NCBI GenBank assembly: GCA_030431975.1
Contig: JAUIHP010000007.1
Span: 130,554 to 194,553, forward strand
Length of the DNA: 64,000 bases
Origin: a bacterium
GTDB lineage: Bacteria; Eisenbacteria; RBG-16-71-46; CAIMUX01
Direction: 5' to 3'
The stretch's first letter is position 1. Every line of letters begins with the position of its first letter. Positions 21,824-49,957 of this stretch are shown here, in pieces. Under the pieces are notes generated by a model. It was not told where the DNA came from, did not search any database, and saw nothing but the letters and a program-made list of their open reading frames with translations. Both the position numbers and the translations under genes were made by a program.

Positions 21824-21828
21824 AGAGA

Positions 21829-28300: not shown

Positions 28301-28384
28301 CCGGATGTCCGACGCAGGGTGAGGTTCCAATGGTGACGGCCCTCGCCTATCCGGTAACCTGCCTGCCCGTGGAAGGGAGTCGTT

Positions 28385-28654: not shown

Positions 28655-28756
28655 GTGTCTTCCATTTGCGAGCCCAGTTGGAAGATCTAGATTTCCTGCA
28701 GCGATCTCGAAAGAAGGATGCAGGGCCTCAACCGTCCCGGCAGTAAGGAAGCTTTC

Positions 28757-29302: not shown

Positions 29303-29551
29303 TCGGAAAAACATTCCCGTGTGAAGAAGAGAAGCGATGGGAAGTTTGGTAACACTTCTCCGACATGCTTTGCTGAGTGATCTGACCCACCCAAAGAAAA
29401 ACCAGCCGGTGTATTAGCTCCGAACCCCGTCCTTTTCACAGACTTCGCCGTTTTCGGCCAAGCCTGCGCAAGAAAGCGTGCGGATTGGTTCGCTCCTTGC
29501 CGTAGTGCTTCCGAGTTCACGGGGGTGACTCGAAACGCGAAGGCGAACGTG

Positions 29552-33753: not shown

Positions 33754-34002
33754 ATGAGAGCAGTAGGGAAAGTTCAGCGGACGACTCGATTCGTAGTGTT
33801 CGGGCTGTCGATCCTGGGTGCGGTAGGAGCACTCTCCGGATGCGCCAGTGTTGCGGCCTACGAAAAGGAGCATCTTGCTGACCGGATTCTCGCCTTCGAT
33901 GCCGAGACCGCGGAAGAGGCGCGAGAAGTGAAGTGGCTGGAGGCCCGCGAAGGCTCGACCGGCGGCGTCGGCGGCGCCGGTGGAGGTTGCGCGTGCAACT
34001 GA
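33754..34002 (+). CDS. DUF4266 small lipoprotein
   Basis: 82 residues: a lipoprotein signal (LSGCAS), then VAAYEKEHLADRILAFD and a Gly-rich end that finishes GGGCACN. A Gly-Gly-Gly-Cys-(Gly/Ala)-Cys-Asn terminus is the hallmark of DUF4266. The family nearly always sits beside DUF3570 and usually near a TlpA-like thioredoxin and ApbE (family knowledge). The terminal Cys pair could bind a metal or a cofactor. AAGGGAAAG precedes the ATG. It overlaps the DUF3570 start by ten bases, so their production is linked. Confidence 0.9.
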   Translation: MRAVGKVQRTTRFVVFGLSILGAVGALSGCASVAAYEKEHLADRILAFDAETAEEAREVKWLEAREGSTGGVGGAGGGCACN

Positions 34003-35145: not shown

Positions 35146-36831
35146 GTGAAGAAGAAGACCATCCATTCGATGATCGGCGGGGCAATGTTCGGAGGCGTCG
35201 CTTCCGTGCTCAGTTTGGCTCCCGCGCCGGCCCTCGCGGAGTCCTTCGACAGAGCTGCGGTAGCGCCGGATCTGGGAGTCGAGGTGTTTACCCGTGAAGT
35301 TGCGGAGGACAAGGTCGGGAAGCGCCTCTTCTCGGCTCCCTACTCTTCCGCCGTCATTGGAAATGTCGACATCTACGACACCTTTCCCTATGTCGAGTCC
35401 CGTTACTTCGTGATCGTCTCCGATCCGGCTTGGGATCGCCTCGTCATCACGGCGACCGGGAGCGGTCGGGTCACCGAGTACCACGGGGACGACCTCATCG
35501 GAGTGCTTTCCGCACCGCGCGGTCTTACGGTCGATGGCGAGAACCGGATCTACGTGTGCGATACCGAGAATGACCGCCTGCTCGTGTTGCAGGCCGAACC
35601 GGAGTTCGACCGGTTGGGGCTTCGTCTGATCACGACCGTCGAGGATCTCTCACGCCCTTACGACGTCGCGGTGTCCGACAACGGGACCCCGACGATGTGG
35701 GAGGACGACCGGGTCTACATCGCCGAGGCCGGCGCCAATCGGGTTTCCAAGTTCGAGGTCAGCGGCAATGACTTGTCCCTGGTCAGTCGACTGGGTGGAC
35801 TCGGCTCCGGTGTTGGACGTTTTGCAGGACCGCTGGCCCTGACCGTTGGCTTCGCGGAAGGAGCCGGGACCGAGCAGGTCTACGTCGCCGATTCGCACAA
35901 CCGGCGCATCGTTCTGCTTGAGGACGACGGGCGGTCGCTTCAGTGGATCTCATCGGTTGGGCACGACGCATCTTCCGTGACCGGTCTGGACGTCGATCAG
36001 TGGGGACAGCTCTACTCCGTTTCCCCACAGGACGGGACGGTGACGAAGTGGACCCCGAACCTGGAGCCGCTCGCCCGACTGCAGACGCCGGCCCGACCGC
36101 GCAGCTTCCATGTTCCGTTCGTCACGACCACCGATCATCGAAGCGGAACCGTGACGCGGTCCGGTGAGGGGCGTGGGCTTCTGGTCGAGGACTGGAAGCA
36201 CGATTCGGGTATTCGCGCCTGGAGTCTTGGGCTCGAACTGAGTGACCTCGGCGTCAGCCCCAATCCTTCCAGCCCTTCTGCGGAAGTCGGTCTCCAGTTT
36301 CAGTTGACCGATCCGGCCCTGGTCGTCGGTCGTCTCGAGCGTGTGGATGATGGCACCATCGTGGCGGAGAAGGAGTTTGGTGTACTTCTGTCCGGCGCAC
36401 AGAGTCTCGAGTTCGAAGAGGGCGACTTTCTGGAAAGTGCGGAGGCTTCTGCAGAGTACCGATTCGTCGTCGAGGCCTCCTCGACGTATGAGGGTGGCCC
36501 GACCGTCGTTGCCTCCTCCGATGTTTCTCTCGATCGTGACCTCCAGGTGTTGGGACGCCCGACGTTTCTCGGCAACTCTCCCAACCCGTTTCCCGGCACG
36601 ACAACGTTCCGCCTGCAGCTTCCGCCTGCGGAGGGTACGGCCACCGTTCGGGTCTTCGACCTGGCCGGCCGTATCGTCGACGAGATCGCGGCGAAGCATT
36701 CCGGCGGACGCGTCGACCTGGAGTGGGACGGTCGCGACAGCGACGGCCGCGAGACGAACTCGGGAATCTACTTCTACCGCGTAGAGGCTGCGGACCGGGA
36801 GTGGGAAGGCCGAATGGTGCGCCTGAAGTGA
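35146..36831 (+). CDS. NHL-repeat beta-propeller protein with C-terminal FlgD-like Ig domain
   Basis: 561 residues. GTG start with GAGGAG at seven bases; signal peptide ending PAPALAES. Residues 80-370 contain NHL-type repeats (RGLTVDGENRIYVCDTENDRLLVL, YVADSHNRRIVLLED, GLDVDQWGQLYSVS). Residues 480-561 are a FlgD-like Ig domain (NSPNPFPGTTTFRLQLPPA...VRVFDLAGRIVDEI...WDGRDSDGRETNSGIYFYRVEA), the secreted-protein tail common in FCB and Eisenbacteria-like bacteria. It may bind a ligand or partner at the cell surface. It follows DUF3570 by ten bases and overlaps the next gene. Confidence 0.88.
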   Translation: MKKKTIHSMIGGAMFGGVASVLSLAPAPALAESFDRAAVAPDLGVEVFTREVAEDKVGKRLFSAPYSSAVIGNVDIYDTFPYVESRYFVIVSDPAWDRLVITATGSGRVTEYHGDDLIGVLSAPRGLTVDGENRIYVCDTENDRLLVLQAEPEFDRLGLRLITTVEDLSRPYDVAVSDNGTPTMWEDDRVYIAEAGANRVSKFEVSGNDLSLVSRLGGLGSGVGRFAGPLALTVGFAEGAGTEQVYVADSHNRRIVLLEDDGRSLQWISSVGHDASSVTGLDVDQWGQLYSVSPQDGTVTKWTPNLEPLARLQTPARPRSFHVPFVTTTDHRSGTVTRSGEGRGLLVEDWKHDSGIRAWSLGLELSDLGVSPNPSSPSAEVGLQFQLTDPALVVGRLERVDDGTIVAEKEFGVLLSGAQSLEFEEGDFLESAEASAEYRFVVEASSTYEGGPTVVASSDVSLDRDLQVLGRPTFLGNSPNPFPGTTTFRLQLPPAEGTATVRVFDLAGRIVDEIAAKHSGGRVDLEWDGRDSDGRETNSGIYFYRVEAADREWEGRMVRLK

Positions 36832-37475
36832 GGCGGAGCACGCGAAAGCAAGTAGTGGGAGACGGCACACGTTCGCTGCTTTCAGCGCTGACGGGCGGGC
36901 TGACCCTTGGACTCGCCGTTTTCCTCAGCGGCTGTCTTGGTGAGCCCGAGATCGAAGATCGGTGGACCCGACTCGACGTCCTCAGTGTCGACGAGAATGT
37001 CACGGATCCCGAGGACGGGTCTACGGCAACGCGCGTGCGTGGTGCGATCACGTTCCGCGCCATTCTGACGGGTTCTCTCATCATGGAACTCCGTGTCAGT
37101 GACGCCGTCGGCGCAAAGGATGTCGATCTGCGGGATGAAGCAGATCGTCTGGACACGGCCCACCAGATCATGAACCTCATGGACAGCTCGACGGTCATCG
37201 CGCGCTCGAGTTTGTTCGTGACGGGATTCGATCATCTCATTCGGGAGCATGACTTCGTCCTGCCGGCAAACGTTCCCGACGCGCCATCAGGCGGAGCCGT
37301 CTTTGCGGTGCTCTACTTCGGTCAGATCGAGGAGATGGAGCTGCCGTCCGGCGAGGAGATCGAAATCGTTACCGCGTCGGACTTCGAGGCAGAGCAGATT
37401 CTTCCTGCGGCGTTCCTTCTTCGCGACGGCGGCGAGGGCGAGGGCGACGGCGAGACGGAAGGTCGGTCGTCATGA
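36828..37475 (+). CDS. Lipoprotein of unknown function
   Basis: 215 residues from the GTG overlapping the previous stop (GTGA). Lipoprotein signal with FLSGCLGEPE. The mature part is mixed alpha/beta with no family that I recognise, and has an acidic Gly/Glu repeat tail (EGEGDGETEG). A later GTG near 36855 is an alternative start. Its own stop overlaps the next start (ATGA), so it is embedded in a coupled series of envelope genes. Confidence 0.65.
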   Translation: MRRSTRKQVVGDGTRSLLSALTGGLTLGLAVFLSGCLGEPEIEDRWTRLDVLSVDENVTDPEDGSTATRVRGAITFRAILTGSLIMELRVSDAVGAKDVDLRDEADRLDTAHQIMNLMDSSTVIARSSLFVTGFDHLIREHDFVLPANVPDAPSGGAVFAVLYFGQIEEMELPSGEEIEIVTASDFEAEQILPAAFLLRDGGEGEGDGETEGRSS

Positions 37476-38233
37476 GCTCACGTGTCACGAAAAGGCACTT
37501 CGCCAATAAGGGGGAGACACCAAGCGCGGTCGCGGGGCTTCTTTCGTTGGATGACCGCATGGACCGGACCTCGATGGGCGTACCGAGGCCGGTAGTTTCG
37601 GTCCTGATCCTTACAGCGTTTGCCCTGCTCTTTGGCGCAGAGGCGGCCCGCGCCGGCCTGTCTCCGATCGACGCTCGTTTCTCCGTTCTTGCCGGGGCGA
37701 CGCGGACCGGGGAAAAGCTGGTCGAATATCAGTGGTTGAATGAGGACCGCCTCAATGTCGGGGGACAGTTCCTCATCGGCCGCGGTCCGGTCTCCGTCGG
37801 CGCCCGAGGATGGACGACGACCGGTGAACAACTTCTGACCGTGCCGGGATTGGCCACGCAGTCATTGGAAACACGCCTGGTCGCCGGTGAGGCGGTCCTC
37901 CGTGTCGACATGCTCACGTTGGGGGGAGCCTCGCTCTTCGCCCAAGGCTCCGGAGGCCGAATGCGCCTCTCCTACGGAACGGAACTTCTCCGTTTTACTC
38001 CGACGGGATCGTCTGAAGAACTCGAAGTGGCTTTGCCCCCCATCGACGGATGGATCGGGGGCGGAGGAGTTGGGCTCGACTATGCAACGCCGTTGGGCGT
38101 TTCGGTCGGAGCCGTCGTGGATCGTAGTTGGTTTCAAATGGAAACCGCACACCGCTCCGGCGAGGAGATCGTGCGGACCACGGAGTCGTTCGGGGAATGG
38201 ACGGTCCGTGCCGAACTCGGTTGGGGGTTTTGA
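37472..38233 (+). CDS. Outer-membrane beta-barrel protein
   Basis: 253 residues, with a signal peptide after a long 40-residue N-terminal extension (VSVLILTAFALLFGAEAARAG). The mature region starts SPIDARFSVLAGATRTGEKL and shows amphipathic strands ending SFGEWTVRAELGWGF, a C-terminal Phe as expected for BAM-inserted barrels. Role unknown. Its position before the TPR/ExbB set recalls the small barrels GltA/GltB of the myxobacterial gliding machine, but I see no sequence proof of homology. A second start within the extension (ATG 37559 or 37574) may be the real one. Confidence 0.72.
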   Translation: MSSRVTKRHFANKGETPSAVAGLLSLDDRMDRTSMGVPRPVVSVLILTAFALLFGAEAARAGLSPIDARFSVLAGATRTGEKLVEYQWLNEDRLNVGGQFLIGRGPVSVGARGWTTTGEQLLTVPGLATQSLETRLVAGEAVLRVDMLTLGGASLFAQGSGGRMRLSYGTELLRFTPTGSSEELEVALPPIDGWIGGGGVGLDYATPLGVSVGAVVDRSWFQMETAHRSGEEIVRTTESFGEWTVRAELGWGF

Positions 38234-38241
38234 AAATCTAA

Positions 38242-38259
38242 CCTCGATTTGAATCGAGG
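38242..38259. promoter_or_regulatory. Hairpin (8-bp perfect inverted repeat) before the SH3-barrel gene
   Basis: CCTCGATT, TG, AATCGAGG: an 18-base near-palindrome located eight bases after the barrel stop codon and just before AAGGAGGG, the ribosome site of the next gene. It could be an operator or an RNA hairpin tuning translation. No T run follows, so it is not a standard terminator. Confidence 0.5.
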
Positions 38260-38273
38260 CTAAGGAGGGTATC

Positions 38274-39332
38274 GTGCGGAGACCTCGCAGGCGTCTACCG
38301 TGGATCATCCTTGTCCTTCTGCTCCTGGGGGCGTCGAACCCATCGACCCTGAGGGCAGAGACAGACATGCCCGGAACAAAGTCGACGGTCTCTCAGTCGT
38401 CGACGGATGCGCCTATTGAAAGCGGCGCGGCGGCGAACTCGGGGGCAGAGCCTTCCTGGTTCACGCCCGTGAGTCCGGACGAAGGGAAAGCGAGCTCATC
38501 GAGAACGGCGCCCCTGTCGGCCCCGTCGATCGAGACCGATTCGGTCGATGGAGCGTCCGCGGAAACGGAACTCGTTCGCCCGACCCTCCACCGCTCTGAA
38601 GACGGATGGGGCTTCGCCATTCCAATGGTCCGATTCGTCGGCAGCGACCACAACGTCGTGCGCCGTGGTCCCGGCGAAGGGTTCGCCATCGTCGATGTCG
38701 TCGAGAAGGGTGTCGAGTGTCGCGTCATCGCCAAGAGCGGTGACTGGTTCAACGTCGAACTCTCGGAAACGACGACCGGCTGGGTTCACTCCGCGCTCTG
38801 CGAAGAGTTCGAAGACCTCTCCCACCTCGAAATGCGACCCAACCCACGCCTCTTCTCGCGAGTGGGGGCCTTTACCCTTTCGGGATACGCCGGCGGGTAC
38901 GCCTACGACCGGAAGTCGAACTCCGTCGCGCTTGGTGGACGGATGGGCTACTACCTGTTCGACTTCCTCGAAGTGGAAGGCGGCGTCTCCTGGACGCATA
39001 TCGAACGACCGGCCGAGATCGTCGAGTCTCTGTTCGACCTACGTCTCGAAGCCGAAGATTTCCACATGCTCTACTACAACCTCGGGCTTCGGCTCGAGCT
39101 ACTGCCGGGTCGTCGGATGGTCCCGTATGCCCTGGCCGGCGTCGGCGCCTCCATTCTCCAAGGCCGCACCGAGTCGGCGTTCCACTATGGCGGCGGCACC
39201 ATGCTCTTCGTCAACAAGACGACGGCCGTCCGTTGGGAACTTCGCTCCTACCAGTTCGAGTCCGGGTTCGATCGGGCTCGCCGCCGCAATCACAACGTCG
39301 AGTTCAGTCTGGGAACGTCGGTGCTCTTCTAG
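38274..39332 (+). CDS. SH3-domain outer-membrane beta-barrel protein
   Basis: 352 residues; GTG start with AAGGAGGG at eight bases. Signal peptide, about 80 residues of Ser/Glu-rich linker, then a bacterial SH3 domain (VRFVGSDHNVVRRGPGEGFAIVDVVEKGVECRVIAKSGDWFNVELSETTTGWVHSAL), then an eight-strand barrel (FSRVGAFTLSGYAGGYAYD...FVNKTTAVRWELRSYQF...RRNHNVEFSLGTSVLF). The SH3 module may reach peptidoglycan while the barrel sits in the outer membrane. SH3-barrel fusions occur in myxobacteria and Eisenbacteria-like genomes next to Exb/TPR genes, from memory. Confidence 0.82.
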   Translation: MRRPRRRLPWIILVLLLLGASNPSTLRAETDMPGTKSTVSQSSTDAPIESGAAANSGAEPSWFTPVSPDEGKASSSRTAPLSAPSIETDSVDGASAETELVRPTLHRSEDGWGFAIPMVRFVGSDHNVVRRGPGEGFAIVDVVEKGVECRVIAKSGDWFNVELSETTTGWVHSALCEEFEDLSHLEMRPNPRLFSRVGAFTLSGYAGGYAYDRKSNSVALGGRMGYYLFDFLEVEGGVSWTHIERPAEIVESLFDLRLEAEDFHMLYYNLGLRLELLPGRRMVPYALAGVGASILQGRTESAFHYGGGTMLFVNKTTAVRWELRSYQFESGFDRARRRNHNVEFSLGTSVLF

Positions 39333-39346
39333 GAGGTTCGCTGATC

Positions 39347-39934
39347 ATGACTCTTTCCATGAAGTCCTTCCGGCGGCCCGCGCGTTCGTTTGCGGCGGTG
39401 TTGGCCCTGGTTGCTGCCGCGTTCGCGATCGAGATCTGCCGAGCCGGCGATGCGTCGCACATGACTGCTCGCGAAGGAGTCGCGCTGGCCTATTCGGCGG
39501 CGCGCGCCTGGGCGGAAGATGCGGAACTGGTCTATCTGGAGAACGACGAGGACCTGAGCGACGCCGGAACTTCGGCGCGCTGGGGATATCTCTTCCGTTC
39601 CGAGACCTTGGAGGGAGCACGCGGCTACTCCGTGGCCGGTGGCAAGGTCGTGCAGGCCGGTGACCTCGGTTTCCGATTCGACCCACCTCCGATCGAGGCA
39701 GGATGGATCGATTCACAGACCGCGTTGCAAACCGCTGAAGAGAAAGCGGGACTCGAATTCCGTGCGAAGGAGGGCGGCTCCCTGGATTCGATGCTTCTTC
39801 TCCGTGGAGCCTCCGACCCGAAGAAGCCGGAGCGAACGAGTTGGCTTGTCGTTTACCGGGCGGAGGGCCGTCCGTCTCTGTTTGTCCTGGTAGACGCCGT
39901 CGACGGTGACGTGCACCGGAAATGGAGGGGATAG
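39347..39934 (+). CDS. Exported PepSY-like protein
   Basis: 195 residues. AGGAGG lies ten bases before the ATG. Signal peptide ending ICRAGDA. Two repeats resembling PepSY domains (TAREGVALAYSAARAWAEDAELVYLENDEDL... and SWLVVYRAEGRPSLFVLVDAVDGDV), as in small periplasmic inhibitor-like or structural proteins. Fourteen bases after the SH3-barrel gene; its stop overlaps the start of the coiled-coil gene. Confidence 0.65.
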   Translation: MTLSMKSFRRPARSFAAVLALVAAAFAIEICRAGDASHMTAREGVALAYSAARAWAEDAELVYLENDEDLSDAGTSARWGYLFRSETLEGARGYSVAGGKVVQAGDLGFRFDPPPIEAGWIDSQTALQTAEEKAGLEFRAKEGGSLDSMLLLRGASDPKKPERTSWLVVYRAEGRPSLFVLVDAVDGDVHRKWRG

Positions 39935-40833
39935 TGTCCCAACTACGAACACTTCTTCCGTTGTCACTCGCTGTGTGCGTTCTCGCTTCAGCCACGATCG
40001 TCGTCGCCCAGGACAATGGCTTGGACGAGGCGGCCCGGGTTGCCCAAAACAATGGATCGGACGACGCGGTCCTGGTCACACAGGACGACGGCTTGGATGA
40101 CGCGGTCCCAGTCAAGGTCCGCCGCGAGAAGCCAGATCGACTGAAGAAGCCGACGCTTCGCTTTCTGCAGGAGAACCTCGACTTCCTGCGTGCGCAGATC
40201 GACGGTCTCCATTGGGAGGCGGATCGCCACGACGCAGACGGATCCGTTGTCGATCCGACATGGATGCGCTACCTGGAACTGCAGCAGGCGGCGGAGCGCT
40301 CCGTTTCAGATGTCGAGCGGATCGGAGAGGAATCCCGGCAACGGGAACTCCTGGAGTCGGTCGCGGAACTGGTGGCGGTGGAGGAAAGTCTTCAGCATCT
40401 CTCGAGCGCCTTGGATGGGCACGAGCAGCGTCTTCAGGAACTTCACGAAGACTATGTCGAAGACCACGTGACCAGTCTTGTCATTCTCCTACAGGGAACG
40501 GTCGACCCCGGAATTCAAATGGCAACTTTGGCCCGCGAAGACGGCCGCGTCGTCGACGTCTCCTTTGACGGTGCGATCGCCGGATCACTCGAGTCCGGCG
40601 CCATCGTCGAGCTGGACCATGACTTCGTCGAACCTCGCTGGCAGTGGTTGGAGCTGAGTTTCGGCGGGGCCGCATCGATCGAACCGGTCTATCTCGAGAT
40701 CGAACCCCTGCGTGACCAGCTCAACTTCGTTCAGATCGACCTCGGGTCGGTTCGCGCAACCTCTCCTGCCGAAGAATGGAGCGTCACGTCCTGGAGCCGC
40801 CCTCTCAATGGAGGCTACGACTGGACGTGGTAA
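39934..40833 (+). CDS. Exported coiled-coil protein with N-terminal 12-residue repeats
   Basis: 299 residues from GTG 39934, with GGAGG at five bases; ATG 39922 is possible. Signal peptide ending TIVVAQD, then three 12-residue acidic repeats, a helical coiled-coil region (TLRFLQENLDFLRAQIDGLHWEADRH... to ...SALDGHEQRLQELHEDYVEDH, about residues 65-175), and a beta-rich C-terminal domain ending GGYDWTW. No known family. Likely a periplasmic component of the neighbouring TPR/Exb set, since it overlaps both neighbours. Confidence 0.65.
   Translation: MSQLRTLLPLSLAVCVLASATIVVAQDNGLDEAARVAQNNGSDDAVLVTQDDGLDDAVPVKVRREKPDRLKKPTLRFLQENLDFLRAQIDGLHWEADRHDADGSVVDPTWMRYLELQQAAERSVSDVERIGEESRQRELLESVAELVAVEESLQHLSSALDGHEQRLQELHEDYVEDHVTSLVILLQGTVDPGIQMATLAREDGRVVDVSFDGAIAGSLESGAIVELDHDFVEPRWQWLELSFGGAASIEPVYLEIEPLRDQLNFVQIDLGSVRATSPAEEWSVTSWSRPLNGGYDWTW
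40009..40116 (+). repeat. Three 36-bp units (12-residue repeats)
   Basis: Three consecutive 36-bp units encoding QDNGLDEAARVA, QNNGSDDAVLVT and QDDGLDDAVPVK, directly after the signal-peptide cleavage site. The unit length equals that in the NUDIX repeat, but the sequences are unrelated. Confidence 0.93.
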
Positions 40834-43800
40834 GGACCGCGACCACATTTGCCTGCGTCCTACTTGTCGCCGGTACTCAGCTCCTCGCCGCCGAGGCCTC
40901 GCTGGCCGAGGCGTTGGATCGTGTCGACGTAGAGTCCGTCCGGCGGTTCGCGGACCGGTGGTCCCTGGCGGACAGCTCTTCCCGTGTTCGACCTGACGTT
41001 GCTGACGTGGACCCGAGCGAGACGCACTTCCGACGCGGGCTTTTCTATGCGTTGAGGGGCGACCAACTCTCTGCCGTCGTCGATCTGGAAAGGTGTCACC
41101 TCGACCCTGCGGTCTTCTCTGACGCCGATCGGGCCGCTTTCTTGCTGGCTCTCAGCTATTCGTACATCGGGGACGACGGGGGAGTCGCTCGGATCGCTGC
41201 GGATGTTCGGGGATGGAAGTCGACCGCGTTCACACGGTGGGTGCTTCGGGCGGACGCAGAGCTTCAGGTTCGCCTCGGGGTGGACCCGGGCGCAAACGCT
41301 CCGAGAGCAAACGGCGCGGGCACAAACAGCCCGGACGCTAACGTCGCGGAAGCTAGCGATCCGGAAATCTACGACGCCGAGGGAAGGGCCCTGCTGGCCT
41401 GGCTGGCCTATGAGTCGGGGGAAAACTCGACAGCGAAACGTTGGATCGACGACCTGGACCATGCGTTGGCCGCGCAGCTCCGAGCCTTGATGGACCCGAA
41501 CAGCGCCGCATCCATTGGCGACTTCGCGTCGCTGGAAACGCTCGACGATCGTGTCCCGCACCTGGAGTTTCGGAAAGCCCTCGACGCCCTTGCCGATGCA
41601 AAGGACGCCGCCGACAGCTTGGCGGTTGCCGAGCAACTTGCGCATTGGATCTCCCTGGCGCCGGACCATCCGGACGCGCCGCAGATGCGACTTCAGCTGG
41701 CCAGTCTTCATCTTGCGGCCAACCGATTCCGGGACAGTCAGGCCGTTCTTCAAACCTCACGGAGTGATCTCCAGCTCCGCCGTTCGGATCTGTTGCGCGT
41801 GCAGGAGGAAAAGCTCTGGAGTGCGGTGTGGGAGGACTGGGTCACCGACGACGGGTGGCACCCACTCGTGCTCGTCGAAGGTGCGAACGCGGAAGGTGGG
41901 AACGCGGAAGGTGGGGCGGCCACCGGCGAGAACTGGATTCGCGAATTGGCAGGAGACACGAGGCGGGAGACGGTCGTTTTGCCTGCGAGACCGCTGCGGG
42001 AGGCCATGGGTTCGGCTCCCCTCTCCCGTCTCGTTCCCCTGCCTGAAGTGGCAACGCTTCGCGAAGTCGCCGACTTGGAGTCGGAAGCGCGCTCCGCGTA
42101 CAACGGGCGCGAACGGGCGCGATGGCAGTTGCAGCAGGCCAGGATGGATCTCGAAAGGCGCCGCGGCTACGTACGACGCGGAATTGATCGTGTCCGCGGA
42201 GAGATTGCAGGACTGCAGGAAGTCGAAAAGGAACTGGCACGCATCGAAAGCCGGCTCGACCGACTCTTCTCCCTGATGGACCAGGTCACGGAGGCGGAGA
42301 TTCGTCGCATCCTTTCCGAAACGGAACGGATTCTGAACCGGGTTGCAGAGACCCGAACCGAGATCGATGCGGTGGAGCACTTCTACGACCAGGGACCGGA
42401 CGAGGCGCGTCGAACGAATCCCCCGGAGGGCTACCCCGACCGGAACGAACTGCTGAACGGAGAGGATTCCCTGGCTCAACGGTTGGGCGACACGGCGGAC
42501 GCATTTCGGAACAACTATCCCGACGTCATCCGCCGAAGCCGTGACGAAGTGTGGAAGCCAAGGATCCGGGAGTCCCTTGATCAGCTCGCGGCGCGCACCA
42601 ATGGTCTGCTTGCCCGTGCCGCGGAAGAAGAGCGAACTCTGCTCGCCAAACTCGAGTCCCTGGATCCCGGCCAACTTCTGGCGGGCGCGCACGAAGATGT
42701 CCGCGCTTGGGACCACCGGGTCGATGACGCAGTGTCGCAATGGCTGCAGCATCGGCAGGACGTTGTCGAGCAGGCGGTGGCCGCAGAGCTCGAGCGACTG
42801 CACGGGCTGGACGAGGGGCTTCACTACCAGGCCGCTCTTGTTGAGTACGAACTGGCAGTCCGGGGACAGGGCAATCTCGAACTTGCGGTCGCCAGTTGGG
42901 ACGACTTCCTCTTGGCGTATCCGGATGCGGTCACGCGCGCTCATGCACTCTACCGGTTGGCCGACCTGGAGCTGACGCAGTCCAAGGATACGTTCCGTCG
43001 CGAAATGGCGTCCTACCTCGCGATTCCGGAGCCGAATCGGGGATCCCGCGTCGTGCCCATCCTCGACACGGGCCGGGCGCTTCCGCTCTACGAAGATCTG
43101 GTCGCGAGCCACCCGGACTTCCCGCACCTGGATGCCGCCCTCTATCACGTCGGTGTGCTGCGTGCCGACGAAGGCGATCCTCGGGGGATCGACGCCCTTC
43201 ATCGTCTTCTCGCCGACTATCCGCAGTCGAAGTTCCGGCAGGAGTCGCAGCTTCGCGTGGCGGACTTCCACTTCGACGGTGGACGTCTCGAGGAAGCGGC
43301 TTCCTTCTACGAACTGGCTGCCGCTGGTGAGGACGCGGGTCTGTCTGTGATCGCCCTCTACAAGCTGGGTTGGTCGCACTTCCGAAAGGACCGCTTCACA
43401 GAGGCGGCCGGGGCCTTTGCCCGCGGACTCGATCTGTACGAAGCGGGAGCGCAAGCCGAAGGGGGAGCGGATCTGCGCGGCGAATCGCTCGACTATCTCA
43501 TTCACTCACTCGCTCGTGCCGGGGGCGGAGAAACTGCGGCGACCTTCTTCGACGGTCTGGGTCCCCGGTCCTACTCTTCTTCGGCCTTGCTCGGCGTTAG
43601 CGCGCTGCTCCGACGCTTCTCGCTCTTCGGTCCCGCTGTGGAAACGGACATGGCCTGGTTGGAGCGATTCGGATCGAGCCCGGAGGCGCTCTCCGTGGCC
43701 GCAAACGTCGTGGAGACCTACGAACTTTGGGAGCGTCCGGGAACGGCCCGGAAGATGCGACTGCAGTTCGCCGAAACCTTCCAGCCTGGATCCGACTGGT

Positions 43801-45599
43801 ACCGCTCTGCAGATTCGGATTCGCTGCGCGATGAAGCCAACCGCTTCTCGAGAGATGCCTACTACAAGGTGGCGCTCTTCCACCATCACCGGGCTCGTAC
43901 GGATGAAACGGGCACGGAAGACTGGGAGCGCGCGCTTCAGCTCTATGACCGCATGCTTGCGCTTTGGCCAAATGATGCCGAGTCGGCCCGCCTTCACTAC
44001 AACATGGGGGAAGCCGCACAGAAGAGCGGGAAGCCGCAACGTGCCTACGCCGCGTTCGGCGTGGCCGCGCAGGCGGAAGATCGCACCTTCTCTCGTGACG
44101 CTGCATGGCAGCAGGTGGCTGTACTCGATACCTGGTACGAATCCGAGAAGAGTGATTCCCTGGCCAACGCTTTGGTGACGCAGATCGATCGTTACCTGTC
44201 CGCCGATCCTTTCGAGCTGCGCGGACCGGATCTGACCTGGCGGCAGGCCGGTGTGGCCTTTGCCCACGGATGGGACGAGTTGGCGATCGAGAAGTGCTCT
44301 CTCATGGCACAGCGGTATCCACGGGATCGCCGCGCGGCCGAGGCGTTGACGATGCGGGGAGATGCTTACTATCGGGGGCAGTCGTACGGAGACGCCGCAA
44401 CCGCTTACGAGGAAGCCGCTCGTTTCGTCGAAGCGAGCTCCGACTCTACTGAGCTTCGCGACCGGCTGTACGCTCTGGTTCCTCACTGCGCGTATCTCCA
44501 CGGCGAGTCCGTTCATGAGTCGGGAGAGACACACGCCGCGGCGCAGATCTTCGAGAGAGTGGCCACTCGTTGGCCGGAGTTCGAGGAATCCGAGAACGCG
44601 CTCTACCGTGCAGGAACCGCCTATGCCGAAGAGGACCGTTCTCTGGACGCCGTCCGATGTTTCGAAGAGTTGATCCGGACCTACCCGGACGGCGTGTATA
44701 GACGTGATGCCTACCTCGCACTCGCTGCGGTCTACGAAGATGACGATCGTCTTCTGGATTCCGCGCGGGTTCTGGAGCGTTTTCACGATGACTTCCGGGA
44801 CGACGCAGAGAGCGGTCCGGCCCTGCTGCAGGCCGTCGAACTCTGGCGGAAGGGAGGGGACGAGTATCAGGCCGCACGGACGGAACGTCGCTACATCGAC
44901 AACCATCCGGAAGATACGGAGACCGCGGCCGTGGTCTATCACCGGGAAGCCGGTCGCGAACTCGAAAGACTGGGAGAGTTCGCACCCATCTCCACCTTGT
45001 TGGACGAAAGTTCCGATGCCGGCGCAGAGAGCAACGCGAAGAGCGATCTGCAGCGCTACTTGCATCTTGCCAAAGAACACCCCGAGTACGCGGATGCCGC
45101 GTTGATGGCTCGGGTCGACTTCCTCGTCGCCGACGAGACGCACCGCGGTTACGACTCCGTTCGACTGACGCAGCCGTTGAAGGCATCCCTGGCGCAGAAG
45201 AAAGAACTCTTGGAACAGGTCATCGCCGAATACAAGCAGTCGGTATCCCACGGAGTTTCTCCATGGAGTCAGGCTGCGACCTATCGCATCGGTCAGTGCC
45301 TCATCAGCTTTGGAGATCGACTGCTGGAAAGCGAGCGACCGGCCGATCTATCGATGGATGATCGACAAGCCTACGACGAGGTTCTGGAAGAGCAGGCATG
45401 GGAATTCTACGGGCAGGGAGAAGACGTCTGGTCGCAGTTGTTGACGCAGATCGACCCCGCCCTGGAAGACGAAGGCGGCTGGATCGAACGAACGCGCAGC
45501 TCGTTGTGGCCGAGGGTGTCCGCGCGGTTCGTTCACTTCGCCGAAGCCGCGCACCCCATCGTCGAGGCGGCGCCCCCCGGCTCGGGTGGAAGCGAATGA
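40827..45599 (+). CDS. Very large exported TPR protein (GltI/AgmK-like architecture)
   Basis: About 1590 residues, the largest gene here. From GTG 40827 a signal peptide follows at once (RTATTFACVLLVAGTQLLAAEAS); ATG 40776 is the alternative start. Residues 40-400 are TPR-like helices carrying two Ala-Asn-Ala repeat linkers. Residues 420-640 are a coiled coil (VADLESEARSAYNGRERARWQLQQARMD... EKELARIESRLDRLF...). Residues 670-1560 are YbgF/BamD/Sel1-like TPRs (FLLAYPDAVTRAHALYRLADLEL, LHRLLADYPQSKFRQESQLRVADF, FERVATRWPEFEESENALYRAGTAYA, FEELIRTYPDGVYRRDAYLALAAVY). A giant periplasmic TPR scaffold beside ExbB-ExbD-ExbD-TonB genes recalls GltI of myxobacterial gliding, by layout not by proven homology. 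Confidence 0.85.
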   Translation: MVRTATTFACVLLVAGTQLLAAEASLAEALDRVDVESVRRFADRWSLADSSSRVRPDVADVDPSETHFRRGLFYALRGDQLSAVVDLERCHLDPAVFSDADRAAFLLALSYSYIGDDGGVARIAADVRGWKSTAFTRWVLRADAELQVRLGVDPGANAPRANGAGTNSPDANVAEASDPEIYDAEGRALLAWLAYESGENSTAKRWIDDLDHALAAQLRALMDPNSAASIGDFASLETLDDRVPHLEFRKALDALADAKDAADSLAVAEQLAHWISLAPDHPDAPQMRLQLASLHLAANRFRDSQAVLQTSRSDLQLRRSDLLRVQEEKLWSAVWEDWVTDDGWHPLVLVEGANAEGGNAEGGAATGENWIRELAGDTRRETVVLPARPLREAMGSAPLSRLVPLPEVATLREVADLESEARSAYNGRERARWQLQQARMDLERRRGYVRRGIDRVRGEIAGLQEVEKELARIESRLDRLFSLMDQVTEAEIRRILSETERILNRVAETRTEIDAVEHFYDQGPDEARRTNPPEGYPDRNELLNGEDSLAQRLGDTADAFRNNYPDVIRRSRDEVWKPRIRESLDQLAARTNGLLARAAEEERTLLAKLESLDPGQLLAGAHEDVRAWDHRVDDAVSQWLQHRQDVVEQAVAAELERLHGLDEGLHYQAALVEYELAVRGQGNLELAVASWDDFLLAYPDAVTRAHALYRLADLELTQSKDTFRREMASYLAIPEPNRGSRVVPILDTGRALPLYEDLVASHPDFPHLDAALYHVGVLRADEGDPRGIDALHRLLADYPQSKFRQESQLRVADFHFDGGRLEEAASFYELAAAGEDAGLSVIALYKLGWSHFRKDRFTEAAGAFARGLDLYEAGAQAEGGADLRGESLDYLIHSLARAGGGETAATFFDGLGPRSYSSSALLGVSALLRRFSLFGPAVETDMAWLERFGSSPEALSVAANVVETYELWERPGTARKMRLQFAETFQPGSDWYRSADSDSLRDEANRFSRDAYYKVALFHHHRARTDETGTEDWERALQLYDRMLALWPNDAESARLHYNMGEAAQKSGKPQRAYAAFGVAAQAEDRTFSRDAAWQQVAVLDTWYESEKSDSLANALVTQIDRYLSADPFELRGPDLTWRQAGVAFAHGWDELAIEKCSLMAQRYPRDRRAAEALTMRGDAYYRGQSYGDAATAYEEAARFVEASSDSTELRDRLYALVPHCAYLHGESVHESGETHAAAQIFERVATRWPEFEESENALYRAGTAYAEEDRSLDAVRCFEELIRTYPDGVYRRDAYLALAAVYEDDDRLLDSARVLERFHDDFRDDAESGPALLQAVELWRKGGDEYQAARTERRYIDNHPEDTETAAVVYHREAGRELERLGEFAPISTLLDESSDAGAESNAKSDLQRYLHLAKEHPEYADAALMARVDFLVADETHRGYDSVRLTQPLKASLAQKKELLEQVIAEYKQSVSHGVSPWSQAATYRIGQCLISFGDRLLESERPADLSMDDRQAYDEVLEEQAWEFYGQGEDVWSQLLTQIDPALEDEGGWIERTRSSLWPRVSARFVHFAEAAHPIVEAAPPGSGGSE
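41292..41366 (+). repeat. 15-bp tandem repeat (ANAPR-type units)
   Basis: Five 15-bp units encoding ANAPR, ANGAG, TNSPD, ANVAE and ASDPE in the TPR protein. The unit length and the Ala-Asn core match those in the M28 peptidase (4384-4436). Confidence 0.9.
41881..41915 (+). repeat. 15-bp tandem repeat (ANAEG-type units)
   Basis: Two and a third copies of a 15-mer containing GAACGCGGAAGGT, encoding Ala-Asn-Ala-Glu-Gly and Gly-Asn-Ala-Glu-Gly in the TPR protein. Confidence 0.92.
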
Positions 45600-45760
45600 T
45601 CGGAACCTCGCGCGATCCGTCCCGGTGGCCTGCAGAGTCGATGCGTCGGGCCGCGCAGATCCCGCGCGGGACACCAGTCCGATCCGTCAACGACGATGGT
45701 AGCGAGGTGGCGATGACGACCGATCGAGTCGCGGTTTGGTTGGGGAGAATGGAGCCAGAG
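45600..45760 (+). other. Gap between TPR genes, largest in the 20-kb gene run
   Basis: 161 bases, open in the frame of the following lipoprotein gene, but the translation has no signal or domain. It could hold a secondary promoter; none is clear. Confidence 0.4.
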
Positions 45761-46660
45761 ATGAAGAAATCACATGGGAGCAAGCGAGGTCCGGCTTCGT
45801 CGGCTGTTCTCACGTTGACGGCTACCGTTGCACTTGGGCTCTCACTCCTGGGATCCGGATGCGGAATCATGCGTGGCGGTGACGACGATCCGTTCCGGGT
45901 TTCCGATACTGAGCTGGCTCAGAATGCAGAGGCTTGGAACGCACAGCATCTTCACGTCCTCAGTGAGCACCGCAAAAGTCCGTCCGAGCCGTACTGGCCG
46001 CATCGACTCGCGGAACTGGAGTTGGTGACCGGTGATGTCGCGGAAGCCGAGACGTGGTTCCGCACGGCACTGGAGATCGATCCCATCTATGCTCCGGCCG
46101 CGACTCGACTGAGTGCGTTGCTTTATGAACAGGCACGGCACTTCGAGGCCATCGATTTCCTGGGACCGTTGTCCCAGGTGTCCCGGCGAGGAGAGATCCG
46201 CGCGGCTCTGGCTCTCCATCAGATCGCCGTCGGTGAGATCGAGGCAGCGGAAGACACCGTTCGTCCGCTCGAGGACATCGGGGATCATTGGGCTCGCATC
46301 GGTTCTGTCCTGACGTACGTGAAGCTTCAGGGGGCGGACTATACCCAGGCGCCCCGCCTTGCCGAGCGTGCTCTTTCCGCCCAGGACACTGCCGCCAACC
46401 GCAACAACTTCGGAATCGCCCTCTTGCAGGAGGGAAAGCCGGAGCAGGCCAGGACAGAATTCGAGAAGGCGCTCGAGGCCGATCCGAAGATGGCCGGTGC
46501 GCACTACAACCTCGCCATCGTCGAGAAGTACTACTTCTTCGATCACGATGCCGCGCTCGAACACTATCAGGCCTATCGCGAGCTCTCGTCGGAAGACCCG
46601 GATGGATTGGCTGAAGTCTTCGAGGGTGCGTCCGGTGAAACCATGATGGGGGCCAAGTGA
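45761..46660 (+). CDS. TPR lipoprotein (GltE/AglT-like by context)
   Basis: 299 residues; GGAG six bases before the ATG. Lipoprotein signal with LGSGCGIM. About five TPR units: PYWPHRLAELELVTGDVAEAETWFRTALEIDPIYAPAATRLSALLYEQ, IRAALALHQIAVGEIEAAEDTV, and AANRNNFGIALLQEGKPEQARTEFEKALEADPKMAGAHYNLAIVEKYYFFDHDAALEHYQAY. Likely anchored in the outer or inner membrane as an adaptor. TPR lipoproteins accompany ExbB/ExbD engines in myxobacteria (GltE), the basis for the comparison. Its stop overlaps the next gene's GTG. Confidence 0.85.
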   Translation: MKKSHGSKRGPASSAVLTLTATVALGLSLLGSGCGIMRGGDDDPFRVSDTELAQNAEAWNAQHLHVLSEHRKSPSEPYWPHRLAELELVTGDVAEAETWFRTALEIDPIYAPAATRLSALLYEQARHFEAIDFLGPLSQVSRRGEIRAALALHQIAVGEIEAAEDTVRPLEDIGDHWARIGSVLTYVKLQGADYTQAPRLAERALSAQDTAANRNNFGIALLQEGKPEQARTEFEKALEADPKMAGAHYNLAIVEKYYFFDHDAALEHYQAYRELSSEDPDGLAEVFEGASGETMMGAK

Positions 46661-47124
46661 TTCGACGAAGCATCTCCTGGCTCCCCTTGCGGTCGAACGT
46701 GATTGGCAATGCGGTTGCCGTGACCACAGCGTCGGCAGCTACGGCAGTGGCTAAGGTCGTGGCTACAACTGCGGCGACAGTGGCAACGACAGTGGCAGCG
46801 ACAGCGGCTACGGCTACGGCTATGGCTATGGCTACGGCAGCGGTCGCGATCAGCTTGATTCCTTGCGCGGCATGGGCGAACGCCGAAGGGCGGACGCTCG
46901 ACGAAATCTCGATCGAGGGTGAGATCGCCATGCCTCAAGTCCTTTTCGTCACGGCTCGTGAGCCCTACCGATTGTCGGATCGGGCTCACACTGTCTATCT
47001 AACCGAACCCGAGGAACTCGACGCCAAGCTGACCGAGATCATTCCGATCTGGATCGGCCGACCCGTCTGGTTCCAACCCGGCAACGAAGGGCCGGGGGTC
47101 AACGCAACGCCGAACCGGCGTTAG
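46657..47124 (+). CDS. Exported small protein with greatly expanded Ala/Thr/Val signal region
   Basis: 155 residues from the GTG overlapping the previous stop (GTGA). Residues 18-73 are almost only Ala, Thr, Val and Met before AAWANAEG, a likely cleavage site; this is two to three times the normal signal length and comes from 6-bp-type repeats. The mature 80 residues (LDEISIEGEIAMPQVLFVTAREPYRLSDRAHTVYL...IPIWIGRPVWFQPG) form a small beta-rich domain of no known family. Thirteen bases before exbB. Probably a periplasmic partner of the Exb proteins. Confidence 0.7.
   Translation: MIRRSISWLPLRSNVIGNAVAVTTASAATAVAKVVATTAATVATTVAATAATATAMAMATAAVAISLIPCAAWANAEGRTLDEISIEGEIAMPQVLFVTAREPYRLSDRAHTVYLTEPEELDAKLTEIIPIWIGRPVWFQPGNEGPGVNATPNRR
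46728..46850 (+). repeat. Degenerate 6/12-bp repeat in a signal peptide
   Basis: GCTACG and GTGGCAACGACA-type units, repeated with drift for about 120 bases, encoding Ala-Thr-Val-rich sequence in frame. Confidence 0.85.
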
Positions 47125-47137
47125 GGAGGAACGACCG

Positions 47138-47779
47138 ATGGAAATCCTTTCTGGGATTGCCACTTTCTTCAAGAACGGGGGACCGTTCATGTTCATCATC
47201 CTGGCGATCGGAGTCGTCTCACTGGCCATCATCGTCGAGCGCGTCTGGACGATCGGCCGAGCTTCTTCGATCGATAGCCGGAAACTTCTTCGGGACATCG
47301 AAGGACGGGTGCAGCAGGGCGACATCCCGGGAGCGCTCGGTGTCGCCAAGCAGGTTGACGGACCGGTGGCCCGGGTTGCCTCGAGTGTGTTGTCTTCTGA
47401 TCACAACAATGATGACCGGCTCTACAACGCGGCCGAAAGCGCAGCGACCGTCGTGCTTCCGCCGCTTTCCCGCCGACTCTCGTTTCTCGGAGTGCTCGCC
47501 AACACCGCGACGTTGTTGGGACTGCTGGGAACGATCTTCGGTCTGACGACAGCGTTCTCGGCCGTGGGCGCGGCCGACCCGGCAGAGCGGTCCGCGTTTC
47601 TTGCGGCTGGTATCTCGCAGGCGCTGAACACCACGTCCTTCGGTTTGATCGTGGCCATCCCGACGCTGTTGGCCCACAGCTTCCTCGTCGGCAAGGTGGA
47701 CACCATGGTCGAGCAGGTCGAAGAAGCTGCGGCGCGCATCGTCCAGGCTGTCGTTCGCCGGCCGCGCCGAGTGGCTTGA
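47138..47779 (+). CDS. MotA/TolQ/ExbB proton channel family protein
   Basis: 213 residues, three membrane helices: FMFIILAIGVVSLAIIVERVW, LSFLGVLANTATLLGLLGTIFGLTTAF and SQALNTTSFGLIVAIPTLLAHSFL, with the family's conserved GLLGTVxG and ALxTTxxGLxxAIP features. It forms the stator pentamer that uses proton flow to power ExbD. AGGGAGG precedes the ATG. Comparable to AglR in Myxococcus. Followed by two ExbD genes at 27 and 79 bases. Confidence 0.95.
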   Translation: MEILSGIATFFKNGGPFMFIILAIGVVSLAIIVERVWTIGRASSIDSRKLLRDIEGRVQQGDIPGALGVAKQVDGPVARVASSVLSSDHNNDDRLYNAAESAATVVLPPLSRRLSFLGVLANTATLLGLLGTIFGLTTAFSAVGAADPAERSAFLAAGISQALNTTSFGLIVAIPTLLAHSFLVGKVDTMVEQVEEAAARIVQAVVRRPRRVA

Positions 47780-47806
47780 TCACCCGGCCGCGAGAGGAGC
47801 CTAGAT

Positions 47807-48313
47807 ATGGCACGTCGACGTTTGCGCAGGTTTCGGGAGATCGTCGAATCCGACCTCGAGATCCTGCCTTTGATGAATCTGTTCGTGGTGTTGATTCCGA
47901 TGCTGCTGCTTTCGGCGGTGTTCCTGGAGTTGTCGGTGATTCACATGGCCGCGCCCGGCGGGGACGAGCAAGCCGAGGTCGAGAAGGAGTCGTTTGATCT
48001 TGCCGTACACATCTCCGAAACGAGTTGGGAGATTCGGGCACGGAACATCGAGACCCGAGTGATCTCGAGAACGGAAGCCGGGATGGTAGAGGCGGATGGC
48101 TCCGATGGCATGACCAGCGCGATCGACTTTGCGACGGCGGTCGGACGTCTCCATGCCGCATTGATCGAGATTGCCGTTGATCATCCGGAGAACAAAGCCG
48201 TTCGAATCGTTTCGCAACCGGACACGATCTACGAGGACATCATCGAAGTGATGGACGCGTCCCGCGCCGCAGGACTGCCGGAGGCCTCACTGCAGGCGGC
48301 CGGTCAGAGCTGA
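47807..48313 (+). CDS. ExbD/TolR family protein lacking the conserved Asp (Asn24)
   Basis: 168 residues: short cytoplasmic basic N terminus, one membrane helix, and a periplasmic domain of about 120 residues ending ...FRIV-type strands (NKAVRIVSQPDTIYEDIIEVMDASRAAG). The membrane helix begins LEILPLMNLFVVLIPMLLL. In ExbD/TolR/AglQ the equivalent residue is an Asp that binds the proton and is essential for force generation; here it is Asn24. The GAGGAG site lies seven bases before the ATG. It presumably works as the silent partner of the Asp-containing copy that follows. Confidence 0.9.
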   Translation: MARRRLRRFREIVESDLEILPLMNLFVVLIPMLLLSAVFLELSVIHMAAPGGDEQAEVEKESFDLAVHISETSWEIRARNIETRVISRTEAGMVEADGSDGMTSAIDFATAVGRLHAALIEIAVDHPENKAVRIVSQPDTIYEDIIEVMDASRAAGLPEASLQAAGQS

Positions 48314-48392
48314 GGGTCGTCCGCATTCGGTACCACCCAGCCGCGACGAGCTGCTTTTCGCACCGTATCGGGGCTAGAACGTAGGGAAAACG

Positions 48393-48869
48393 ATGCGTAG
48401 AAAGAAGCCAAGAAAGAAGCACGGAGTCACTCAGCTTCGAATGACGTCGATGATGGATATCCTCGTCGTTCTCCTGCTGTTCCTCATCAAGAGCTTCGTT
48501 GCCGATGAGCAGATGAACCCGGCGGCCGGCGTGACGCTTCCGGAGTCGACGAGTCAGGAACGGCCGGAAGACTCGGTTGTCGTTGCCATCACCGATTCAT
48601 CCATTCTCGTCGGTGAGGACTGGGTCATGGACCTGACCGCGCTCGATGACTCCGAAGAGATGCTCCTCATCCCGCTGGCCGATCATCTGCGTGATGTTCG
48701 CTCGGTTCGCGAAGACATCGCGCGCCTTCAGGGGGAGGACCCGAACCTCGGAAGGGTCACGATTCAGGGAGACCGCGAGATCGAGTTTGCCGTTCTGCAG
48801 CGCGTGATGTACACCATCGGGGCCGAGGGCTTTGAAGAAGTCTCCCTGGCCGTAATCCGGACGACTTGA
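48393..48869 (+). CDS. ExbD/TolR family protein with the conserved Asp (Asp22)
   Basis: 158 residues with a basic N terminus (RRKKPRKKHG), one membrane helix starting RMTSMMDILVVLLLFLIKSF with the proton-carrying Asp22, and a periplasmic domain ending with RVTIQGDREIEFAVLQRVMYTIGAEGFEEVSLAV, typical of ExbD. AGGGAAAA precedes the ATG. Together with the preceding Asn24 paralogue it makes the one-TolQ-plus-two-TolR layout seen in AglRQS. Confidence 0.93.
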   Translation: MRRKKPRKKHGVTQLRMTSMMDILVVLLLFLIKSFVADEQMNPAAGVTLPESTSQERPEDSVVVAITDSSILVGEDWVMDLTALDDSEEMLLIPLADHLRDVRSVREDIARLQGEDPNLGRVTIQGDREIEFAVLQRVMYTIGAEGFEEVSLAVIRTT

Positions 48870-48876
48870 GGTGGCA

Positions 48877-49911
48877 ATGAGTCAGACTCTCACAGCTACC
48901 TATAGGCAGCCGCTTCTGGGAAGGCCGGACCCGCGACTGCGCAAGAGCATGACATTCTCGTCGGCTCTGGGCGTGTTGGTCCTGGCGGTCGTCATCCTGG
49001 CGCCGGTGCAGGTCGAGGAGAAGCCGACCGTCGAGGATGTTCCCGAACGGTTGGCCAAGCTCATTCTCGAGCCGAAGAAACCGGTCCCGGTTCTGCCACC
49101 TGCTCCGGTCAAGATCGATACACCACCGGTTCCGGAGCCCGTTGTCGAAGCTCCACCCGAGCCGGTGGCCGAGGCCGTCCCGGAGAAGAAACCGGAGAAG
49201 GTGGAGGCGACGAAGCCCAAGCCCCGAAGCCAGCGTACGGAGAAGTTGGACACCGACCGTGGGGTCGCGGGCAGAACCCAGGCGCAGAAGGAAGTGACGG
49301 CCGCGCTCGCCCAAACGACCGAGAGTGTGAAGTCGACGCTCAACAGTCTGTCGGAAGATCTGGCCTCCGTGGGCGTCAACTCCGGCGACACGGCGCCCAA
49401 GCGAACCGGGGGACGCCGGCGACCGGGTCGAGGACGCAGCGGTGCGGAGGCGGGCGGCGCCGTCGCGGCGCGGACCGACGTCGGCTCTGGACACTCGACG
49501 GGAACGGTCGTCACCGGCGACTTCATCGATATCGAATCGATCGCGACCGGGTCCGGGAACGGTGATCTCGCCTCGGCCGATCCTGCGCTCGCTGCCGGAG
49601 GGGGTCCGGAATCCGGATCCTATCGAAGCAACGCGAGCCTTCTTGCCGTCGTTCGAAAGTACGCTGCCGGGATTCAGTTCTGCTATGACAACCAGCTCAA
49701 GCAGGAGCCCGGCCTGAAAGGGAAGATGGTCGTCGTGCTGACGGTCGAGGCTTCCGGCCAGGTCTCCCAGGCGAAGATTGCGGAGGATGGTCTGGGCTCG
49801 TCGCCACTTCGAGAGTGTGTGCTGGCGCAGGTTCGGGCGTGGAAGTTCCCGGCGATTCCGGAAGGAGTCGTCACCTTCCGCACACCGTTTGTCTTCACTC
49901 CGCCGCAATAG
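48877..49911 (+). CDS. TonB-like protein with AgmX/PglI C-terminal domain
   Basis: 344 residues. A single N-terminal membrane anchor (LGVLVLAVVILAPVQV), a long Pro/Glu/Lys-rich stiff linker (PKKPVPVLPPAPVKIDTPPVPEPVVEAPPEPV...), a Gly/Arg-rich region, and a C-terminal AgmX/PglI domain: LLAVVRKYAAGIQFCYDNQLKQEPGLKGKMVVVLTVEASGQVSQAKI...LRECVLAQVRAWKFPAIPEGVVTFRTPFVF. The two Cys (QFCYD and RECV) are characteristic of the domain. It should span the periplasm and carry force from ExbB/ExbD to outer-membrane partners. ATG 48877 is preceded by GAGGTG; GTG 48871 is an alternative. Last gene of the 20-kb run. Confidence 0.92.
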   Translation: MSQTLTATYRQPLLGRPDPRLRKSMTFSSALGVLVLAVVILAPVQVEEKPTVEDVPERLAKLILEPKKPVPVLPPAPVKIDTPPVPEPVVEAPPEPVAEAVPEKKPEKVEATKPKPRSQRTEKLDTDRGVAGRTQAQKEVTAALAQTTESVKSTLNSLSEDLASVGVNSGDTAPKRTGGRRRPGRGRSGAEAGGAVAARTDVGSGHSTGTVVTGDFIDIESIATGSGNGDLASADPALAAGGGPESGSYRSNASLLAVVRKYAAGIQFCYDNQLKQEPGLKGKMVVVLTVEASGQVSQAKIAEDGLGSSPLRECVLAQVRAWKFPAIPEGVVTFRTPFVFTPPQ

Positions 49912-49957
49912 AGCAGCACGCCTTTACAGCAGCGCCCCGATAACCGAACATGCCCGC

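Follow-up and report, generated by a model that had tools for sequence, protein, structure and literature searches.

A core complex of aglRQS and gltC, D, E and G has been described in non-gliding bacteria, where it was left without a function (Luciano et al. 2011, PMC3169522). DUF3570 is a demonstrated substrate of ApbE, and clusters of ApbE, DUF3570, thioredoxin and DUF4266, with or without DsbD, are known (Meheust et al. 2021, PMC8238504), while for HzsA-like proteins outside anammox, activity on other substrates has been suggested (PMC10732223). Here we describe a gene cluster that holds relatives of all three, located in a 64,000-nucleotide stretch of DNA (the window; contig JAUIHP010000007.1, positions 130,554 to 194,553, assembly GCA_030431975.1) from a bacterium of the Eisenbacteria lineage. 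An original prediction, made from the letters of this stretch, had described its genes from 37472 to 49911 as an energised trans-envelope machine related to Agl-Glt outside myxobacteria, perhaps for gliding, surface transport or the anchoring of beta-helix proteins. We find a real, conserved and unusual system in which a variant Glt-type core complex is joined to an electron-transfer module, and for which gliding is unlikely.

The 12 genes of the original prediction are present at about the positions given for them. All lie on the + strand. Neighbours are mostly separated by -13 to +79 bp, and once by 161 bp, and these coordinates bear out a unidirectional run of closely spaced or overlapping genes. 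The genes from 37472 onward are real, but the unit to which they belong begins near 29.5 kb of the window and not at 37.5 kb. It is a collinear cluster of about 20 genes, all on the + strand in the window, with a 5' redox half (module A, 29.5-39.9 kb plus ApbE) and a 3' half of Glt/Agl core type (module B, 39.9-49.9 kb). Using the TPR protein of 1590 amino acids as a query we obtained orthologues in genomes of the same class and compared their neighbourhoods, and 17 named records were retrieved with a profile of the SH3-barrel protein; the relatives are metagenome-derived only, and gene order was read as far as each record extends. The cluster recurs collinearly in the 17 named records, which are assigned to Eisenbacteria, Krumholzibacteriota and 'Gemmatimonadetes' metagenome-assembled genomes, and this excludes a chance grouping. 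The fixed order is, in module A, ApbE, haem-motif lipoprotein, barrel A, HzsA-like, TlpA, DUF4266, DUF3570, NHL/FlgD, lipoprotein, barrel B, SH3 barrel and PepSY, and in module B coiled coil, TPR giant, TPR lipoprotein, small protein, ExbB, ExbD1, ExbD2 and PglI. With the PepSY gene as marker, 13 of 47 genomes in the window's phylum and 9 of 80 in a second phylum were found to carry the cluster, and the order is maintained across the two phyla at about 30-60% protein identity. Co-occurrence in related genomes had been named as a check on the prediction, and the adverse outcome, no conserved co-occurrence, did not arise. The marker was not found in any other genome of the window genome's order. 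A genome of the same family (G002, 68% complete) holds the part from the TPR lipoprotein to PglI, and given this, loss or incompleteness in relatives is as likely as an acquisition of the cluster by the window genome through horizontal transfer. What is well supported is which genes are present, their order and homologies, their conservation, and the linkage between the two modules across two phyla.

The kinship of module B was recognized by profile comparison. A search with the PglI tail returned about 20 distant loci sharing, with variations, a recurrent core order: a gene of ~200 amino acids, a GltC-like gene (~650-700), a GltD-like TPR gene (~1000-1200), a TPR lipoprotein, a gene of ~105 amino acids, ExbB, two ExbDs and PglI. 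The TPR giant, a periplasmic TPR/coiled-coil protein (40827..45599), would be a fusion of the GltC- and GltD-like proteins: its N half matched the GltC-like set (hhalign 97.4%, E 1e-11) and its C half, in HMM comparison, was collinear over its length with GltD-like proteins, with up to 356 bits. These alignments, end to end for the C half, led us to reject GltI, the counterpart proposed originally. The TPR lipoprotein that follows (45761..46660, lipobox LGSGC) matched the GltE-like set (hhalign 99.5%, E 3e-22), and the small exported protein after it (46657..47124) is CglF/GltF-like (hhalign 87.5%, E 3.6e-6), one relative matching NF033764 CglF at E 0.006. As negative controls, mismatched pairs of non-TPR families stayed below 1.5%, whereas TPR families cross-match one another at 84-95%, and the assignment of the TPR genes therefore also relies on position. 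A small gene of CglF/GltF type after GltE is a positional feature of the core loci found here and is not a Group B gene in Luciano et al. 2011. Ahead of the giant lies an exported protein predicted by AlphaFold to combine a coiled coil with an Ig-like sandwich (39922..40833), which matched the ~200 amino acid core gene of other phyla (hhalign 95.3%, E 2.2e-8); its model gave nothing below E 0.001 against the PDB. Both this protein and that at 46657 had been listed among three components without a family, a status that neither retains.

The cluster ends with a GltG/PglI-like transducer of the TonB family (48871..49911; NF033768 89 bits, cut-off 40), which has one transmembrane segment and an AgmX/PglI tail and is the sole protein above that cut-off in its 6.2 Mb genome (G000). 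No FHA or zinc-finger domain precedes its single transmembrane segment, and a search of solved structures with the PepSY and PglI profiles gave no useful match. The positive control was a myxobacterial locus with this same glt gene order, gltC-gltD-gltE-cglF-gltG-cglE: GltC (211 bits), GltE (120), CglF (70) and GltG (352) were found below their equivalog cut-offs and yet as the best families, and CglE (211 bits) above its cut-off. The window proteins all remained under the Glt/Agl cut-offs (GltG 59.7 of 650, GltJ 53.6 of 450, GltE 29.7 of 225 and CglE 15 of 70 bits). Among the Group A proteins GltA, B, H, I, J and K, no NCBIfam match was obtained for the cluster proteins, except for a weak CglE/GltH match of the SH3 barrel. 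As in the core complex, an ExbB and two ExbDs adjoin a GltG-type PglI transducer, and homologues of GltC, GltD and GltE lie within the cluster, the first two fused. Profile comparison shows homology between the 3' half and the Glt/Agl core complex, with a GltC-GltD fusion, GltE, CglF, ExbB, two ExbDs and GltG. Together with the description of Luciano et al., this places the Agl-Glt idea as right at the level of the core and not at the level of gliding. The HMM search suggested at the outset has given homology at core level through profile comparison, without any Glt/Agl equivalog cut-off being reached.

The motor of module B differs from that of the gliding machine. Its ExbB/TolQ-type proton channel subunit (47138..47779; Pfam MotA_ExbB 89 bits) is followed by ExbD1 (47807..48313; Pfam 43 bits) and ExbD2 (48393..48869; Pfam 56 bits). 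In ExbD1 the sequence PLMNLFVVLIP has Asn where ExbD, TolR and AglQ have the proton-path Asp, which ExbD2 retains (TSMMDILVVLL). Among the cluster loci, Asn occupies this site of ExbD1 in 18 of 19 (one has Gly) and Asp that of ExbD2 in 18 of 18; some records enter these counts twice, as a genome locus and as a named locus. Over the wider core-type set, ExbD1 showed 31 Asn, 4 Asp and 2 Ser among 37 and ExbD2 Asp in 39 of 39; the Asn/Asp asymmetry is common to most core-type loci in many phyla. A myxobacterial pair of AglQ/AglS type has Asp in both. The D28N exchange in AglQ was shown to stop proton conduction and to paralyse Agl-Glt (PMC3858216), and the state of AglQ and AglS as hetero- or homodimer is given as unknown (PMC9389320); a literature search for an Asn-bearing ExbD found nothing. 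By these sequence criteria the motor is not AglRQS but an ExbBDD of a different clade, and a mixed axle with one proton-carrying subunit would be the natural reading of the Asn/Asp pair. The transmembrane segment of PglI contains no His. Outside the cluster, the window genome encodes 12 TonB-dependent receptors and seven further ExbB-type genes. One further ExbB-ExbD(Asn)-ExbD(Asp) set of the same genome (L057 5062-10404; G000:C37 ~71.1-76.4 kb) has no TPR core and adjoins an unassigned open reading frame of 314 amino acids and a TonB-dependent receptor of 897 amino acids.

ApbE attaches flavin mononucleotide (FMN), and the motif CXXCH binds haem c. In module A, ApbE (a lipoprotein and FAD:protein FMN transferase, 19553..20701; Pfam ApbE 290 bits, 42-48% identity to the cluster ApbEs), DUF3570 (33993..35135; Pfam 126 bits), a TlpA-like thioredoxin with CGPC (33038..33694; AhpC-TSA/Redoxin, CxxC in all members) and a small DUF4266 lipoprotein ending in CAC (33754..34002; Pfam 50.9 bits, CxC invariant) occur together, as in the DUF3570 flavinylation systems. 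The cluster itself starts with a lipoprotein with a conserved C-x(4,5)-CH, a putative atypical haem c site (29525..30064), which in alignment is present in the loci reaching that position, and with the outer-membrane barrel A (30061..30816; OMP_b-brl, Pfam 31.9 bits; OMP_myx_plus-like, TIGR04565 30.6 bits). The HzsA-like protein (30852..32981) has a lipobox, a beta-propeller, an HZS_alpha domain (61 bits) and two CXXCH sites and aligns with PDB 5c2v chain A (E 7.8e-27) over the propeller and both haem domains. Its score against the hydrazine synthase equivalog, 90.6 of 800 bits, is far under the cut-off, and no match to HzsB or HzsC was seen among the neighbours scanned. After DUF3570 come an NHL propeller with a C-terminal domain of FlgD (FlgD_ig) or type IX secretion system (T9SS) type A kind (35146..36831; TIGR04183 30.6 bits, cut-off 23), a lipoprotein without Pfam match whose lipobox Cys is invariant in 13 members (36828..37475), and an exported protein kept at the same place in relatives (37472..38233). 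The latter had been called a small barrel; it has no profile match, and a barrel is plausible. An SH3 domain joined to outer-membrane barrel C (38274..39332; SH3_3 32 bits, OMP_b-brl 31 bits) has best segments with 51-66% identity across the named relatives. For the exported protein at 39347..39934, earlier called PepSY-like, sequence gave no support (E 0.21), while the AlphaFold model (pLDDT 88.8) consists of two alpha-beta4 units in a tandem PepSY fold, for which Foldseek placed the PDB entry 4exr, a C. difficile lipoprotein, first (E 5.5e-6) and YpeB (5boi) second. No DsbD was seen in the cluster. Module A is presumably redox-active.

Some other genes touch upon this module. Between ApbE and the remaining cluster the window has ~9 kb of non-syntenic genes (20780-29414), and in the relatives ApbE is adjacent. 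A second DUF3570-DUF4266 pair, without HzsA-like or core genes, is present in the window's genome (L238 11451-12593; G000:C47 ~84-85 kb). Genome G038 carries near its large cluster, on the opposite strand, a second and classical TlpA-DUF4266-DUF3570-ApbE cluster with a TGAS motif (L043 4850-7740).

What could connect the two modules? The pairwise distances of the A and B genes correlate, with rho 0.72 over 13 loci and 0.78 over 7. Stronger evidence comes from the single-contig genome G385, in which the cluster is broken into two loci 2.2 Mb apart (L241, L248). The module A locus ends at the PepSY gene, and the other has the GltD-, GltE- and CglF-like genes, ExbB, ExbD1, ExbD2 and PglI, with an ApbE beside them. 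In G219, a relative of G385, modules A and B are together without ExbBDD, and ApbE adjoins PglI. The pairing of ApbE with PglI thus outlasts rearrangement.

ExbB and ExbD conduct protons and drive a TonB-type transducer. We propose that the cluster encodes one system of two modules, a proton-driven trans-envelope machine serving an outer-membrane flavin/haem electron-transfer complex, and we would give this an even chance of being correct. Module A would be an outer-membrane and periplasmic electron-transfer assembly of DUF3570, the CxC and thioredoxin proteins, the di-haem propeller, the putative haem lipoprotein, the barrels, the surface-type NHL protein and the tandem PepSY protein. ExbB with the Asn/Asp ExbD pair would take up protons and move the short TonB-like PglI transducer, the force of which may reach the outer-membrane barrels by way of the periplasmic CglF-, GltE- and GltC-GltD-like proteins. 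Energised in this way by module B, the redox complex of module A or its ligand would be opened, assembled or moved. Perhaps this is a new kind of machine, in which a proton-driven and force-transmitting Glt-type core, its two ExbDs forming an Asn/Asp heterodimer, drives or gates a flavin/haem conduit for electrons in the outer membrane; in non-gliding bacteria the core would then also serve to power redox work outside the cytoplasm. This narrower idea is tentative, and we would sooner doubt it than rely on it.

Several observations weigh against a two-module machine. The evidence is computational and function is inferred from it. Shared vertical descent would also make the distances of A and B genes correlate. 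In G035, G025 and G219 the cluster has no ExbBDD, nor is there a cluster-type copy elsewhere in those genomes; in the clusters L071, L051 and L163 the three genes are absent between the CglF-like gene and PglI. These three genomes indicate that the motor may be replaceable and that another may substitute for it. In about 20 core-complex loci from other phyla, a check by profile and by CXXCH count showed no redox genes alongside. Lastly, DUF3570 is expected to have two [S/T]GA[S/T] acceptor motifs. An exact motif (SGAS) occurs in only 2 of 14 cluster DUF3570s, once in each, and most have TTAS or TSAS; the window copy has none, its site reading DAITTAS. Flavinylation of DUF3570 is still likely, as the sequences keep the acceptor region with the motif altered in most.

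Could the cluster be an energised uptake system, in which the barrels import a reducible ligand such as a metal complex, the flavin and haem proteins reduce it in the periplasm and PglI-ExbBDD opens the barrels in a Ton-like manner? A TonB-family transducer, ExbBDD and several barrels are present, and a link to iron assimilation is frequent among flavinylated systems (PMC8238504). However, the cluster has no TonB-dependent receptor, so that the second outcome named as adverse to the prediction, a plain Ton or BAM system, did not arise either, and it also has no plug or cytoplasmic-membrane importer; the 12 receptors of the genome are all located elsewhere, and those barrels that match a family belong to the small OMP_b-brl kind. 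We consider uptake unlikely, though deserving of some weight. The T9SS type A tail of the NHL protein raises another question, whether module B is an export motor that places module A proteins, this one above all, on the cell surface. A SprA-like translocon gene in five of five genomes tested and a low-scoring PorW/SprE-like TPR similarity in the cluster speak for such secretion or surface assembly. Yet the SprA gene is on another contig, no PorV, PorU, GldL or GldM match was obtained in the cluster, and a FlgD-type tail is also found on a neighbouring beta-helix protein that is not conserved. This explanation, too, appears improbable to us without being negligible.

The sharing of core genes in the same order would fit a genuine Agl-Glt machine for gliding or surface transport. 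Such a machine would here have no equivalog match to GltA, B, I, J or K among the cluster proteins, a PglI without the cytoplasmic FHA or zinc-finger platform, an ExbBDD of a clade other than AglRQS, and in ExbD1 an Asn at the position where AglQ D28N abolishes motion (PMC3858216); moreover, the conserved partner is a redox module. We regard it as very improbable, and the gliding claim of the original prediction is not upheld. It is just as hard to believe that two unrelated neighbouring operons were inherited or transferred together. The correlation of distances alone is insufficient against this and the halves are separated in G385; on the other hand, the gene order has been kept over two phyla despite the divergence of the proteins, and in the split cluster an ApbE lies by the motor half, in the same adjacency to PglI as in G219. 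The proposed service of a redox complex by a proton-driven machine is the reading that we carry forward.

The genes downstream of the cluster do not belong to it. An ion-transport-family channel with a four-Cys, zinc-ribbon-like C-terminal end lies right after PglI (49778-50767) and is not conserved there, and a right-handed beta-helix protein of 1162 amino acids with a FlgD-type tail (52101-55589) adjoins a gene of the endonuclease/phosphatase family. Neither the beta-helix gene nor the EAL and K+-channel genes, considered as partners, are conserved neighbours in relatives. The suggested anchoring of beta-helix proteins finds no support, the conserved partner being the upstream redox module.

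The core complex has been known since 2011 without a function, and its tie to an electron-transfer set in two phyla makes its role directly testable, a first testable hint of its part in non-gliding bacteria. The cluster also joins two questions, the purpose of DUF3570 flavinylation and the role of HzsA-like proteins outside anammox, and the fixed Asn/Asp ExbD pair suggests a heterodimeric motor axle with just one proton-carrying subunit. With Ton and Tol systems it shares ExbB, ExbD and the TonB-type C-terminal fold, and it differs from them in the absence from the cluster of a TonB-dependent receptor or Pal/TolB and of the PglI transmembrane His, and in its Asn/Asp ExbD pair. Agl-Glt of Myxococcus xanthus likewise has a motor of ExbB/ExbD/ExbD type, a GltG-type transducer and counterparts of GltC/D/E and CglF, whereas the cluster proteins gave no GltA, B, I, J or K match and lack the FHA platform, and the motor falls outside the AglRQS clade. 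HzsA (PDB 5c2v) and our protein agree in propeller, HZS_alpha domain and two CXXCH sites and in the order of these parts, but ours scores far under the equivalog cut-off and no HzsB or HzsC genes were found beside it. In comparison with the flavinylation clusters of Meheust et al. (PMC8238504), DsbD was not seen and the acceptor motif is mostly TTAS, and HzsA-like and other haem-type proteins, barrels, PepSY and the ExbBDD-TPR-PglI machine are added. The closest likeness is in gene families to the core complex of Luciano et al. 2011, which are clustered there as well, also without a known function; in our cluster GltC and GltD are fused, a coiled-coil/Ig gene stands ahead of them, ExbD1 has Asn, and the redox module is joined to the core, in other phyla.

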